Under the pieces are notes generated by a model. That model made no database searches. It was not told the DNA's origin and was given only the letters and a program-made list of their open reading frames with translations. A stretch of 40,089 nt of DNA from Planctomycetaceae bacterium. Lineage in GTDB: Bacteria > Planctomycetota > Planctomycetia > Planctomycetales > Planctomycetaceae. Location of the stretch: contig JANQQW010000064.1 in assembly GCA_028284885.1 (NCBI GenBank), forward strand, positions 1-40,089. The letters are read 5' to 3'. Positions within the stretch are counted from its first letter, which is position 1; each line of letters starts with the position of its first letter. A program made the position numbers and the translations under genes. This document shows, in pieces, positions 6,436-10,700 of the stretch.

Positions 6436-6456
6436 CTGCGTTGCCACGCAACGCAG
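6432..6456 (+). repeat. REP-like palindrome copy 1, GTAG head, at the leuS stop codon
   Basis: GTAG (6432-6435) is followed by a perfect 9-bp hairpin with arms CTGCGTTGC and GCAACGCAG and a CAC triloop (6436-6456), then TCGAGCGCG. The TAG in the head is the leuS stop. A GTAG tetranucleotide before the hairpin foot is the known hallmark of many REP elements mobilised by RAYTs. It may also act in transcript termination or stability. Confidence 0.85.
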
Positions 6457-6563: not shown

Positions 6564-6588
6564 CTGCGTTGCGTGGCAACGCAGCTAC
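6564..6588 (-). repeat. REP-like palindrome copy 2 (inverted), 5' of the RAYT gene
   Basis: The same hairpin on the opposite strand at 6564-6584, with CTAC (GTAG on the minus strand) at 6585-6588 and, on the minus strand, GAGTGCGG after it. It forms an inverted pair with copy 1 across about 107 bases, like a BIME. Confidence 0.85.
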
Positions 6589-6631: not shown

Positions 6632-7120
6632 ATGTGCGCGGGCATCATGGCCGTCTACCTCTTCACGTGGCACGCCTACCGCAGTTGGATGCCCGACAAC
6701 CCTCGCGGCTACGTCCAGCGCGGGCGTGGTGTACAGCCGCCCGATCAAAGAGAGGCCGAACGCTACCGTGAACGAGCCGTCGAGACGGAACCGACGTTCA
6801 ACGACGAGATCCAGTCCACGCTGATCGCAACGCTCCTCGACTGCCGTGAGCCGCTCGCACTTCGCACCCACGCGATCGCCACGGCACCCACCCACGTCCA
6901 CGCTCTGGTGAGTTGGACGAGCGACCGCACATGGCAGTCCATCGCCCGCTCCGTCCGTCGGAGTCTCACGACCGCACTCGTCTCGTCACACGGCAACCGC
7001 ACGTGGTTCTCCCGCGGCCGCCACGCCGAACGTGTCGAAGAGGACACCCACTTTGAGCACCTGATGACGACCTACCTCCCCGACCATCCCGGCCGAGTCT
7101 GGATCGAACGCGAAACATAA
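6632..7120 (+). CDS. REP-associated tyrosine transposase (RAYT, Y1/HUH family)
   Basis: Small single-strand DNA transposase-like protein (162 aa) of the IS200-related Y1 family. Members cut and join REP hairpins using an HUH metal site and one catalytic tyrosine. Visible features are an N-terminal strand AVYLFTWHAYRSW, the HUH motif His88-Val-His90 inside TAPTHVHALV, and the likely nucleophile Tyr148 in MTTYLPDHPG. The frame is intact. ATG 6632 is used; ATG 6647, which gives MAVYLFTWHAYRSW, is an equally good and perhaps more family-like start, and neither has a clear ribosome site. The gene is flanked on both sides by copies of the same GTAG-type palindrome. Copy 3 starts at the base after its TAA stop, which strongly supports a RAYT rather than an autonomous insertion sequence. 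No TnpB or other cargo gene is fused to it. Confidence 0.85.
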   Translation: MCAGIMAVYLFTWHAYRSWMPDNPRGYVQRGRGVQPPDQREAERYRERAVETEPTFNDEIQSTLIATLLDCREPLALRTHAIATAPTHVHALVSWTSDRTWQSIARSVRRSLTTALVSSHGNRTWFSRGRHAERVEEDTHFEHLMTTYLPDHPGRVWIERET

Positions 7121-7141
7121 CTGCGTTGCCACGCAACGCAG
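7121..7141 (+). repeat. REP-like palindrome copy 3, directly after the RAYT stop codon
   Basis: The identical 21-base hairpin begins at the base after the RAYT TAA. The head here is ATAA instead of GTAG. The following TCGAGCGCG (7142-7150) is the same as after copy 1. Confidence 0.85.
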
Positions 7142-7206: not shown

Positions 7207-8201
7207 CTAGAAGGGGCACTCATCGTCGTCAGAGTCGCTCGCTTCGCCGTCCGTCGGCAACCGCAGGTTGGTCGAAACTGCCAAGTTCAGCAGATCCTCG
7301 CGATCCATGAACATTACATGACGGCGGGATGCTTGATCGAGGTGCTGCCCAAGCCAGTTCTTCGCTTGCTTGGTTATCTCCGCCGCCGAAATGATAAAGA
7401 CATGGTCGACGAGATTCTGCTTGTTCGTCTCCGGATCCCAAATCGGATGCCCGAGCATCATCGTAATCTGGTTGAGGATCTCGGCGACATTCTGATTCTT
7501 GCTTCGTCCTGAGGAGTCGATCTTCGTACGCTTGACCTGAACTCCGAAGTACAAGAAGTGCATTGTCGGAAGTTGGTACTTCATCCAGATGTCTTTGCCA
7601 TACTCCAGAGCCTTGTCGGTATGGCCGGTCAACGAGATGCGAATGAAACCAAGCTGCTGAAACAGCGGCTGGAGAATGCACTCGATGAACTCGTCCTCGG
7701 TCGCGGAATCGAGGTAGTCCGAGAGTTCCTTTCGCTTCTTGATCTCAGCGTCGGTCCACGCGCGACGCTGAAGATGTAGAGATGCTGAAGTGGCATGAGT
7801 GCCGTCGTTGCGTAGATGGCAGCGTTCCGCACCATCGAGATACGCTTGAATGCCGTCCCTCGAGAGGCTTGCATTCAACTCTACGAGGGCGGCATCCGGT
7901 CCAGACCTTCAGCCTGAAAGTCGGCAGCGTCCATCAACTCTTGGATGACACGGACGATACCGTCCGGTGGCAGTTGTGGATTAGAGGCTGGACCAGCGTT
8001 CAACTCAGAGAGGATGTCGAATACCCACGACTTTCGAGTGCTGCCGTCGTGCGTGTAGTCCATGTCGCAGTTGAGAAAGAACTCTGTCAGGTAACTGCTC
8101 GAGCGATATCGGAAGTTCTTTCGCTCGAAACCAGTACCAGCCCCAGTTGCGCCACAGACCATTTCGGCGAGATCGATGAGCGTGCGTTTGTGAAGATGCA
8201 T
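7207..8201 (-). pseudogene. Putative Mrr-like PD-(D/E)xK nuclease gene, broken by a frameshift
   Basis: Two consecutive minus-strand reading frames form one gene. 8201-7881 gives 106 residues starting MHLHKRTLIDLAEMVCG. 7878-7207 gives 223 residues ending DDDECPF. Near 7890-7900 the first frame runs into TAG, whereas the other frame continues smoothly as PDAALVELNASLSRDG, so a small deletion (one or four bases; a CCGG contraction would explain it) has separated the halves. The second half has the layout of the Mrr nuclease core: EYGKD at residues 92-96, then FGVQVKR with Gln114-x-Lys116, then HVFIISAAEITKQAKNWL. This suggests DNA cleavage, but the assignment is by pattern only. Three sampled 60-base rows (7321-7500) have 48-57% G+C against about 67% nearby, and the gene lies between REP copies 3 and 4, so recent acquisition followed by inactivation is likely. 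Confidence 0.65.
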
Positions 8202-8414: not shown

Positions 8415-8439
8415 CTGCGTTGCGTGGCAACGCAGCTAC
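8415..8439 (-). repeat. REP-like palindrome copy 4 (inverted), GTAG head at the stop codon of the repeat protein
   Basis: Hairpin at 8415-8435 with CTAC at 8436-8439 (GTAG on the minus strand). The TAG in that head is the stop of the minus-strand gene 8436-9359. On the minus strand the hairpin is followed by GAGCGCGG and GCGCTC, making a second short stem. Confidence 0.85.
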
Positions 8440-9359
8440 TGGGCCGCGGCCCACTCGTCGTACCGTTGCCGGAGTTCCCCCATGTTGCCGAAGCGGTTGC
8501 GGTAGGTGGTGTTGCTGACCGGGAGGAGGCGGCGGAGTTGGTTGGCGGTGGGGTGGTGGCCGAGGCGTTGCTGCAGGTCGTGGTAGAGGTGGAGGAGTTC
8601 GTCGTCGGTGTAGCGGCGGGCCGTGGCGTTCACGCGGATGCCGGCGGTCTGGACGAGGTCGGTCCAGCCGGACGGGAACAGGCGGTAGACGGTGAAGTTG
8701 CTGACCTCGGCCGCCTCGCAGAACCTCGGCAGCGACAGCGGTTCCGGTGAGGCCCGGTCGGCCGTGCGGGCGGCCGCGATCAGTCGCTCCCGCGTCCACG
8801 TCCCCTTCACCACCTCGTCCGGGTAGCGGGGCGGGAACGACTCCGGCCGGGTGGGGAAGTCGAGGTCGTTCTCCTGCAGCCACCTCGTGTAGCGATCGAC
8901 GACGGCGGCCTTGTTGCCGAACCGCAGGGCGAGGTTCTGCCGCGTGGTCTCGGAGCGGGCCTCGAACTCGAGTTGCGTGGGGATGCGGCCGAGCAGGCGG
9001 ACGACGCGGTCGTACTCGCGGAGCAGCGAGTCGTCGGTCCAGAACCTCCGGCGGACGATGCAGCCGTCGATGCCGGAGCGGTCGACGAGTTCCTCCCAGC
9101 CGCCGGCGAAGTGCTGGCGGACCAGTTTCCTCGTGATGCCGGTGATCGCCTCGAACCGGATCCGGGTGAGCGGGCTCTCGTGCTTCTCGGTCTCGCGGGC
9201 CGCGTCGATCAGGAGATCCGGCGTCCACGGGTGCGGGTTGATGCCGCCGTACTGGAAGCGGACCCGGAACTCGAGAGTCGTGGGGTCGTTCAACGGGTCG
9301 TACAACGGCTCCGGCATTCCGAGCAGGACGTTCGGGTGGAACTGGGCAGGCAGGACCAT
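8436..9359 (-). CDS. Stand-alone protein of four homing-endonuclease-associated-type repeats (putative DNA-binding)
   Basis: The protein, 307 aa from the ATG at 9359, is built almost entirely of four units of about 55 residues in an A-B-A-B order. A units (about 45-97 and 187-241) begin WTPDLLIDAAR or WTRERLIAAAR and end GGWEELVDRSGI or SGWTDLVQTAGI. B units (106-160 and 249-303) begin WTDDSLLREY or YTDDELLHLY, have LGRIPT or LGHHPT in the middle, and end in RFGNKAAVVDRY or RFGNMGELRQRY. The B pattern matches the homing endonuclease associated repeat (HNR), a small helical DNA-binding repeat. No nuclease domain is present. Other starts are TTG 9413 and ATG 9317; ATG 9359 is preferred because it keeps the conserved-looking leader without a rare start. 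Its TAG stop belongs to REP copy 4. Function unknown; DNA binding is inferred. Confidence 0.75.
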   Translation of the reverse strand: MVLPAQFHPNVLLGMPEPLYDPLNDPTTLEFRVRFQYGGINPHPWTPDLLIDAARETEKHESPLTRIRFEAITGITRKLVRQHFAGGWEELVDRSGIDGCIVRRRFWTDDSLLREYDRVVRLLGRIPTQLEFEARSETTRQNLALRFGNKAAVVDRYTRWLQENDLDFPTRPESFPPRYPDEVVKGTWTRERLIAAARTADRASPEPLSLPRFCEAAEVSNFTVYRLFPSGWTDLVQTAGIRVNATARRYTDDELLHLYHDLQQRLGHHPTANQLRRLLPVSNTTYRNRFGNMGELRQRYDEWAAAQ

Positions 9360-9382
9360 CACGGAGAACCCCGGGGCGGCAG

Positions 9383-9568
9383 GTGACTCAACCCGACGGC
9401 GTTCGTTGCGCAACGGGCGGCGGGTTGAAGCGGGAACGCTTCGTCGCGCTCTCGCCGGACCTTCTGGGCGTCGTCGACGTGGACGGGCGGGTCCGGCAGG
9501 CGAACCCGGCGTGGTCCACCGCGACGGGACTCGACTCGGCCGCCGTTCGTCGCAAGGACGAGAGTTAG
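9383..9568 (+). pseudogene. Fragment of a PAS-domain protein
   Basis: A 61-residue open frame starting GTG 9383 contains RERFVALSPDLLGVVDVDG followed by RVRQANPAWSTATGLD. This is the classic N-terminal half of a PAS fold (F-x-L-S-x-D-L-L ... G ... N-P-A-W). The frame stops at once afterwards, overlapping the 3' end of rmlB on the other strand, so the rest of the PAS core and any kinase or output domain is missing. It is best read as a remnant of a signalling gene cut by rearrangement. The first 15 or so residues look random. Confidence 0.5.
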
Positions 9569-10578
9569 CGACCGCCGTACTGCTCCTCGTAGTACTTCAG
9601 GTACTCGCCGGACTTCACGCGGTCCACCCACTCGGTGTTCTCGCGGTACCAGGCGACGGTCTCGGCGAGGCCGGTCTCGAAGGGGACCTCCGGTTCCCAG
9701 CCGAGGTCTCGTTTCGCCTTCGAGCAGTCGATCGCGTACCGCAGGTCGTGGCCGGGGCGGTCGGTGACGTAGGTGATCAGCGACTCCGGTTTGTCGGTCA
9801 GCTTCAGCAACAGTTTCGTGAGGGCGATGTTCGTCATCTCGCACTCGCCGCCGAAGTTGTAGACCTCGCCCGGCGTCCCGTTCCGCAGCGCGGCGTCGAT
9901 GCCGCGGCAGTGGTCGAGGACGTGAATCCAGTCGCGGACGTTCGTTCCCTCGCCGTAGACCGGAAGCGACTTGTCGGCCAGGGCGTTCGAAACGAACAGC
10001 GGGATCAACTTCTCCGGGAACTGGTACGGCCCGTAGTTGTTCGAGCAGCGGGTGACGACGGCGGGGAAGTCGAACGTGTGGTGGTAGCCGCGGACGAGGC
10101 AGTCGGCGGCGGCCTTCGACGCCGAGTACGGGCTGTTCGGGGCGAGGGGCGTCTCCTCGGTGAACAGGCCCGTCTCGCCGAGGCTGCCGTAGACCTCGTC
10201 CGTCGAAACCTGCAGGAACCGGCCCACGCCGACGGTGCGGCAGGCGTCCATCAGCACCTGCGTGCCGACGACGTTCGTGCGGACGAACGGGCCGCTGTCG
10301 AGGATGCTGCGGTCGACGTGGCTCTCCGCGGCGAAGTTGACGACCGCTTCCGGTCGGGTCTCCTTCAGCACCGACTCGACGAACTCGCGGTCCGTGACGT
10401 CCCCCTTCCGGAAGACGTACCGGCCGTTGTCGGCGACGTCGGCGAGGTTCTCCGGGTTGCCGGCGTACGTCAGGGCGTCGACGTTGACGACGGTCTGGTC
10501 GGGGTGGGCTTCGAGCTGCAGGCGGACGAAGTTCGAGCCGATGAACCCGCAGCCGCCGGTGACGAGGAGGGTCTTCAC
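9565..10578 (-). CDS. rmlB: dTDP-glucose 4,6-dehydratase
   Basis: Second step of dTDP-L-rhamnose synthesis: NAD-dependent conversion of dTDP-glucose to dTDP-4-keto-6-deoxyglucose. It is an extended short-chain dehydrogenase of 337 aa, the usual RmlB length. The Rossmann motif GGCGFIG is at residues 8-14, the catalytic pair Asp127-Glu128 is in STDEVYG, and Tyr151-x3-Lys155 is in YSASK. DWIHVLDHCRGI and RPGHDLRYAID are family signatures. The start is GTG 10578, giving MKTLLVTGG; longer frames upstream add 37 residues with no family character. No rmlA, rmlC or rmlD is adjacent, so the pathway is split across the genome. The 3' end overlaps the PAS fragment by a few bases. Confidence 0.95.
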   Translation of the reverse strand: MKTLLVTGGCGFIGSNFVRLQLEAHPDQTVVNVDALTYAGNPENLADVADNGRYVFRKGDVTDREFVESVLKETRPEAVVNFAAESHVDRSILDSGPFVRTNVVGTQVLMDACRTVGVGRFLQVSTDEVYGSLGETGLFTEETPLAPNSPYSASKAAADCLVRGYHHTFDFPAVVTRCSNNYGPYQFPEKLIPLFVSNALADKSLPVYGEGTNVRDWIHVLDHCRGIDAALRNGTPGEVYNFGGECEMTNIALTKLLLKLTDKPESLITYVTDRPGHDLRYAIDCSKAKRDLGWEPEVPFETGLAETVAWYRENTEWVDRVKSGEYLKYYEEQYGGR

Positions 10579-10669
10579 GTGCCGTTCCAGTGAGTGCAGT
10601 GTCGGGAACCACGACGTAACTAACGGACGGGCCGAGTGGAAGGGCGAACGCGGAACGTGCGGCGTCACC

Positions 10670-10700
10670 GGTTGGGCCGGGTTCCCCAACCTGCCATAAT
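10670..10700 (+). promoter_or_regulatory. Candidate trpB promoter overlapped by an inverted repeat
   Basis: TTGGGC (10672-10677), 17 bases, CATAAT (10695-10700) resembles a sigma70 promoter. The arms GGTTGGG (10670-10676) and CCCAACC (10685-10691) form a perfect 7-bp inverted repeat covering the -35 and spacer, as an operator would. The resulting leader before trpB would be about 140 bases. Confidence 0.4.

Follow-up and report, generated by a model that had tools for sequence, protein, structure and literature searches.

A Planctomycetaceae gene encoding a stand-alone array of four HNR-type repeats with likeness to TetR-type DNA-binding heads

Arrays that consist of tandem HNR repeats (Pfam PF18780, HNH_repeat, the 'homing endonuclease associated repeat') and little else have been sequenced before. 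In WP_011222312.1, a 238-aa hypothetical protein of the Haloarcula marismortui plasmid pNG500, PF18780 matches four stretches and no other family exceeds its cut-off, and HNR-only arrays are also present in two viral contigs, one with three repeats (L123) and one with four (L134). To our knowledge, no experiment has shown an HNR unit to bind DNA, and a search of open PMC text returned no paper on the 'homing endonuclease associated repeat'. In a published modelling table, PF18780 appears together with PDB chain 2xsj_C and a value of 0.24. A distantly related unit has been solved in SauUSI (PDB 7clg), where the relevant subdomain is described as part of a coupler and not as DNA-binding; the main text of the paper uses neither 'TetR' nor 'helix-turn-helix'. 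For a link between HNR repeats and TetR regulators, no printed source was found in open PMC text, subscription papers and Pfam clan pages lying outside the search.

Here we describe an array gene in a stretch of 40,089 nucleotides from a Planctomycetaceae bacterium, the whole of which is called the window. The contig is ordinary chromosome, with genes for FAD synthetase, leucyl-tRNA synthetase, a PLP enzyme, a UvrD-type helicase, a tricorn-like protease and an HXXSHH (DUF1552) protein. The array gene is flanked by a dehydratase-type gene on one side and by 2 kb containing REP palindromes on the other, and the features of the locus (helices as predicted) are as follows.

8415..8439, minus strand: REP-like palindrome abutting the array gene (palindrome 8415-8435, GTAG foot 8436-8439)
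8436..9359, minus strand: whole array gene, ATG start, 307 aa, stand-alone array of HNR repeats, putatively TetR-type heads
8448..8612, minus strand: unit B2, residues 250-304 (helices 252-266, 272-278, 283-290, 293-306)
8637..8798, minus strand: unit A2, residues 188-241 (helices 190-203, 210-217, 221-227, 232-238)
8799..8876, minus strand: linker B1-A2, residues 162-187 (174-185 with pLDDT <50)
8877..9041, minus strand: unit B1, residues 107-161 (helices 109-123, 129-135, 140-147, 150-163)
9069..9227, minus strand: unit A1, residues 45-97 (helices 47-60, 66-73, 77-83, 88-95)
9228..9359, minus strand: N-terminal tail, residues 1-44, mostly of low confidence (mean pLDDT 39-52 over 1-40)
9565-10689, minus strand: dTDP-glucose-dehydratase-type gene flanking the array gene (Pfam GDP_Man_Dehyd and Epimerase)

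The 307-aa ORF is an intact gene with native codon-position G+C: the values for its longer reading (8436-9413) are 0.67/0.47/0.94, like those of a real gene, and the adjoining dehydratase gene has 0.64/0.44/0.94. It is a free-standing ORF, and the scans that bear on an intein location are those with Pfam and NCBIfam. An intron context was rejected, as neither an Rfam match at gathering scores, sought across the whole window for self-splicing introns, nor a tRNA was found. A 61-aa ORF (9383-9568, plus strand) lies between the array and dehydratase genes. It resembles the first part of a PAS domain (PAS_4, E 4.8e-4, under the cut-off) and is probably a gene fragment.

An earlier note, made from the sequence alone, had read the protein as units A1-B1-A2-B2, and this order stands. 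Control profiles built from 58 A and 25 B units of other family members, the units of the 307-aa protein having been removed, matched A1 at residues 45-96 (i-E 2.8e-9), A2 at 188-240 (3.5e-12), B1 at 107-161 (5.9e-18) and B2 at 250-303 (1.2e-16), with E-values set for a search of 20,000 sequences. When units were compared with each other (2000 shuffles each), no shuffle reached the score of A1-A2 (z 12.9), B1-B2 (z 11.5) or A1B1-A2B2 (z 21.8). Within the protein, the similarity of A to B is weak: A1-B1 gave z 4.4 (4 of 2000 shuffles), and A1-B2, A2-B1 and A2-B2 were not above chance. At the level of family profiles, A and B match each other (hhalign 97.6%, E 3.4e-12, each profile including two units of the 307-aa protein). 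DNA-level repeats spaced 429 and 432 nt apart in the gene fit a duplication of the whole A-B module, as judged from the sequence. In a tree of 39 A-B modules, A1B1 and A2B2 fell into an unresolved group with three paralogues of the same genome (support 86/91), where A1B1 forms a long branch and a sister relation of the two modules is not supported.

The search with the HNR model bore out the assignment to HNR-type repeats. PF18780 matched the 307-aa protein with 52.8 bits against a cut-off of 26 (5.1e-14), via the B units; scored singly, B2 (32.6 bits) exceeded the cut-off, B1 (22.7) stayed below it, and A1 and A2 were unlisted. A2 alone gave a sub-threshold match to TetR_N (E 0.066-0.08). Against a canonical HNR profile, built from 20 units of viral contigs and other organisms, the A profile aligned end to end (99.0%, E 2.8e-18) and the B profile over 46 columns (99.0%). 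The 307-aa protein also matched phrog_22655, a PHROGs family of unknown function (E 7.7e-13), as did the other array proteins submitted, and two neighbouring ORFs gave no match. NCBIfam had no match for the protein. Nor was any nuclease domain recognised, as the earlier note had supposed: HNH, GIY-YIG, LAGLIDADG and PD-(D/E)XK were all absent from the 307-aa protein, whose Pfam matches at E<=1 comprised PF18780 and the weak TetR_N match. The same Pfam scan revealed no C-terminal ligand-binding or dimerisation domain, the chain being made up of the N-terminal tail, four heads and linkers.

We then looked at the distribution of such arrays. The A-B profile matched in 33 of 170 genomes of the bacterial family (E<=1e-4), and PF18780 in 33 of 294 genomes of a phylum sample (E<=0.001), 28 of them over its cut-off. 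In the genome of the array gene itself, matches lie on eight contigs (C158, C162, C363, C4, C92, C130, C383 and C71), and the copy on C383 has an internal TAG in the matched frame. For the count of architectures, 72 sources (71 loci and the array gene) yielded 68 distinct ORFs; they were gathered with the 307-aa protein, PF18780 and the A-B profile and include some near-duplicates from one genus, and because of this way of collecting, A-B is probably over-represented. With unit profiles that include units of the 307-aa protein, the 68 ORFs were read as AB (35), AAA (7), AA (7), A (7), AAB (6), AAAB (3), B (2) and ABAB (1). That is, homologues with other repeat counts do exist, as the earlier note had proposed to look for, and A-B-A-B is found in the 307-aa protein only. 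In 46 of the 47 ORFs that have B, it occurs solely as the final unit. The A-B-A-B order is what is unusual, a new architectural variant of a kind that is known but uncharacterised in the searchable literature.

A Pfam scan of 65 of these ORFs (the second L005 frame, the short L007 frame and the L097 fragment were left out) found PF18780 in 61, MUG113/T5orf172, which we take to be GIY-YIG-like, in three and HNH in one. Since Pfam gave counts alone, the nuclease-bearing ORFs were assigned by reading the sequences (L032, L036 and L154; L161). The statement of the earlier note that HNR repeats usually stand beside a homing endonuclease thus holds in part: sequence reading places HNR beside HNH in the viral contigs L125, L130, L131 and L133, but within the bacterial family a recognised nuclease domain is present in only 4 of 65 array ORFs. 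Six HNR proteins (L042, L045, L046, L050, L064 and L093) share a domain at the C-terminus in which a motif resembling EFE...H.H..CD...CW...W..CP recurs. This domain looks nuclease-like; it is complete in L093 and seems to be eroded in L020, L026 and L030. Pfam had no name for it in any of three members scanned (L045, L042 and L064). Another group (L021, L023, L025, L034, L038, L083 and L142) shares a tail after A-B (~FL.G.P....P..IPG), which in L083 and L142 is followed by a membrane-like segment; the long frames of these two were rejected as fused domains, the part beyond that segment being judged read-through of no gene.

Such data could be taken to mean that the array descends from a homing or mobile endonuclease, as its DNA-binding half, and persists without function after loss of the nuclease. 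The HNR-HNH neighbourhoods in viral contigs, the four arrays that kept a GIY-YIG-like or HNH domain, the seemingly eroded C-terminal domains and the interrupted copy on C383 would all fit this. But most arrays of the bacterial family, a diverse majority, have no recognised nuclease, and the array gene itself is intact. In relatives, the array is the part kept by purifying selection. Among presumed orthologues from one related genus (L025, L073 and L074, which are A-B proteins with a tail and not A-B-A-B; synteny checked at two of three), the A-B part showed dN 0.004-0.012, dS ~0.14 and dN/dS 0.03-0.08, and the remaining protein dN/dS 0.44-0.59. The two congeneric loci checked have four gene families in common, showing synteny. 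L084, which is 54-55% identical in A-B with dN/dS ~0.34-0.37 there, was excluded as not orthologous. We thus regard a functionless relic as quite improbable.

Searches for relatives farther afield returned little. No close orthologue of the array gene was found in the relatives searched. Among named genomes, a single-protein scan confirmed none of 32 stretches as close relatives, and a three-row alignment confirmed a single stretch out of 82, which is a short HNR ORF from an Undinarchaeales MAG. The viral collection gave no match with A3 or the 307-aa protein, one 18-residue match with L029, which was not used, and 16 loci with the canonical HNR alignment. At E<=0.01, one phage record and 11 haloarchaeal plasmid records were obtained; two of the 11 are annotated as HNH endonuclease, and one (L140) was scanned with Pfam.

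In a structural approach, AlphaFold models were computed for the full-length protein, aligned with nine HNR relatives encoded on viral contigs and a tenth from an archaeal MAG, and for A2B2 alone, with 18 further rows (A1B1 of the same protein and 17 viral). The full model shows four separate four-helix units and not one globular fold, as the earlier note would have it, with mean pLDDT 80.1 and pTM 0.43; the N-terminal tail and the linker stretch 174-185 are of low confidence. The A2B2 model reached pLDDT 93.1 and pTM 0.59. At these pTM values the mutual placement of the units is only loosely predicted. Of 588 VIA matches with Z>=2 for the full model, the 50 listed are all TetR-type by title or protein name; they cover A2 (186-242) and B2 (247-307) and barely A1 and B1, the best Z being 8.4 and an example superposition 2.0 Å over 60. 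For A2B2, 48 of the 50 matches listed were TetR-type (best Z 8.6, 1.6 Å over 57), the other two being SauUSI 617-669 (rank 5) and DsrC (rank 50). Some chains titled by protein name only were presumed to be TetR-type. According to the tool's own note, a Z of about 8 can be reached by chance for helical models; its candidates come from Foldseek, and a family absent from the lists is not thereby excluded. With Foldseek itself, neither model had a match at E<=0.001: its best were TFIIB for the full model (E 0.60) and a TetR-type regulator for A2B2 (0.31), and DsrC chains had the top probabilities for A2B2 (3or1, 0.98). Taken with the sequence evidence below, a fold of four TetR-type units is a well-supported prediction.

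The sequence evidence for TetR is independent of the structure model. From 20 A units, including two of the 307-aa protein, a profile was built and searched against all PDB sequences, giving 97 matches at E<=10. All seven at E<=0.001 are TetR-family, SlmA or transcriptional regulator entries (best 2rek 3e-5, SlmA 6e-5 and 2ras 2e-4), and among the best 60 of the 97, 57 carry the name of a TetR-type protein, of SlmA, or of a transcriptional regulator or repressor; the remaining three are a LacI regulator, an integrase and a chain labelled NF3. Two of ten relatives pass the Pfam TetR_N cut-off of 24 bits (L024 33.4, L033 44.6), and TetR_N matches at E<=0.001 in 4 of the 65 array ORFs. Scanned singly at E<=0.1, 14 of the 20 A units matched PF18780 and seven matched TetR_N. 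The B profile, which likewise includes units of the 307-aa protein, did not reach TetR significantly in the PDB (5ydp, E 0.15), the canonical HNR profile had no TetR among its 16 matches at E<=10, and the 307-aa sequence alone retrieved nothing at E<1. Because B and canonical HNR profiles miss TetR in the PDB, the HNR-TetR link runs via the A units and the predicted structure, and by sequence comparison the A units act as the bridge between HNR repeats and TetR heads. A TetR-type DNA-binding head in the 307-aa protein is thus well supported by the family profile (E 3e-5) and by the predicted A2 and B2, and the fold of Pfam's 'homing endonuclease associated repeat' appears to be of TetR type. 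As for the earlier note, its DNA-binding type of fold was confirmed at this level; by the same evidence the units are TetR-type heads and not a module confined to homing endonucleases.

The units might nevertheless be helical connectors that do not touch DNA, their likeness to TetR reflecting a common helical arrangement or the reuse of an inherited fold. The near-neutral charge of the chain (42 K+R, 41 D+E), the middling VIA Z-scores and the precedent of SauUSI speak for this. On the other hand, both sequence and fold match TetR specifically among many helix-turn-helix families. Moreover, across 60 A units the outward helix-3 columns 34, 35, 36 and 38, presumably the base-contact positions in TetR, account for four of the seven most variable columns (hypergeometric 5e-4, post hoc, with other columns varying as much). 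Such variability was not clearly seen in B units; in A units it would fit paralogues that read different sites. All in all, we consider connectors very improbable.

Could the array instead target or couple a nuclease, methylase or helicase acting in trans? Proteins outside the family have the repeat fused to Mrr (L049), to an N6/N4 methylase (L055) and to SauUSI-like helicases (L061, L063); in fusions to a serine recombinase (L069) and a ROS/MucR-like finger (L058), the HNR repeat and the finger, respectively, score just under the cut-off. The SauUSI coupler subdomain that superposes on B2 points the same way. On the other hand, a comparison of 20 array loci with that of the 307-aa protein found no neighbour family in more than 3 of 21 loci except a pilin-like one (7 of 21), and a conserved operon partner was therefore rejected. 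Pilin-like proteins of this family are very common in such genomes. In addition, nine proteins had no PADLOC match at E<=0.1, on which ground a defence system was rejected, and the array gene is surrounded by housekeeping genes and a REP locus. A subunit acting in trans accordingly has little chance of being the correct explanation.

The REP locus was examined in its own right. Four REP/REPIN-like palindromes (6438-6454, 6566-6582, 7123-7139 and 8417-8433) have the 17-nt core GCGTTGCNNNGCAACGC, three of the four carry a GTAG foot, and the stop codon of the array gene (TAG, 8436-8438) is part of such a foot. With at most one mismatch, GCGTTGCNNNGCAACGC occurs at 31 places in the genome, versus 3 for the reversed control, and the palindromes form seven inverted pairs ~110-130 nt apart. 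By eye, only the 307-aa gene abuts a REP among the arrays of the genome, the next nearest being ~2 kb away (C4), and a general link between array genes and REP palindromes was rejected. Between REPs lies a 162-aa ORF (6632-7120, plus strand) resembling a REP-associated tyrosine transposase by its HVH motif, which we take as the mark of these enzymes. It had no meaningful Pfam match; its N-terminal stretch matched two of four Y1_Tnp loci of the same genome in a search of these four (E 0.001 and 0.002). Between two inverted REPs, two further ORFs (223 and 106 aa; 7207-8201, minus strand) had no Pfam, PHROG or PADLOC match and third-position G+C of 0.70 and 0.64, versus 0.79-0.95 in the nearest neighbours; the pair is possibly a foreign insert.

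We favour, with a probability of roughly 0.64, the reading that the 307-aa protein is composed of four tandem TetR-type helix-turn-helix heads and acts as a multi-head DNA binder, probably a regulator. That other HNR proteins join the repeat to DNA-acting parts (Mrr, methylase, recombinase, GIY-YIG-like, HNH, ROS/MucR finger) speaks for this reading as well. An A-B module, which other members of the bacterial family have as A-B or A(n)-B, would have been duplicated to give A-B-A-B. The third helices of each A-B pair would enter major grooves, and the flexible 26-residue linker would join the two pairs, allowing up to four contacts per chain. A single chain could thereby read a DNA site that is long or bipartite, with no need for the dimerisation on which TetR regulators depend, and the site, once occluded or marked, would serve to regulate the host or resident mobile DNA. 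The 'modular DNA reader' of the earlier note is in this sense plausible. A wider claim, which we think unlikely, would make the A units the missing link that places the whole HNR family in the TetR-type superfamily, with arrays as modular readers in which TetR heads are shuffled in number (A, AA, AAB, AAAB, ABAB) and the recognition helix is varied, so that long sites are read by single chains. If true, such arrays would in principle be the bacterial equivalent of zinc-finger or TALE arrays. The fold assignment, together with the bridge units and a distantly related solved unit in SauUSI, is the most useful outcome of this work: it turns a repeat family known by name only into a testable claim of fold and function, TetR-type heads in tandem, and predicts the DNA-reading helix. 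It also offers a natural single-chain, multi-head helix-turn-helix array with which recognition of long sites can be tested.

Compared with known systems, the 307-aa protein shares with the PF18780 stand-alone arrays of Haloarcula and the two viral contigs its make-up of tandem HNR units and little else. Those arrays consist of canonical HNR units, whereas the 307-aa protein alternates two diverged unit types, and the A units of its family lean towards TetR_N. With TetR regulators (PF00440, TetR_N; 2rek, SlmA, MphR(A)) it has the head in common, matched by sequence in the A profile and by fold in the predicted A2 and B2. But it has no visible C-terminal ligand or dimer domain, and four heads are carried by one chain, where TetR has one head per dimer subunit. 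The coupler subdomain 618-669 of SauUSI superposes on B2 (Z 7.6, 1.5 Å over 53 residues, 23% identity), and for the PF18780-bearing SauUSI-like helicase L063, the alignment with SauUSI covers most of the coupler region, up to residue 666.
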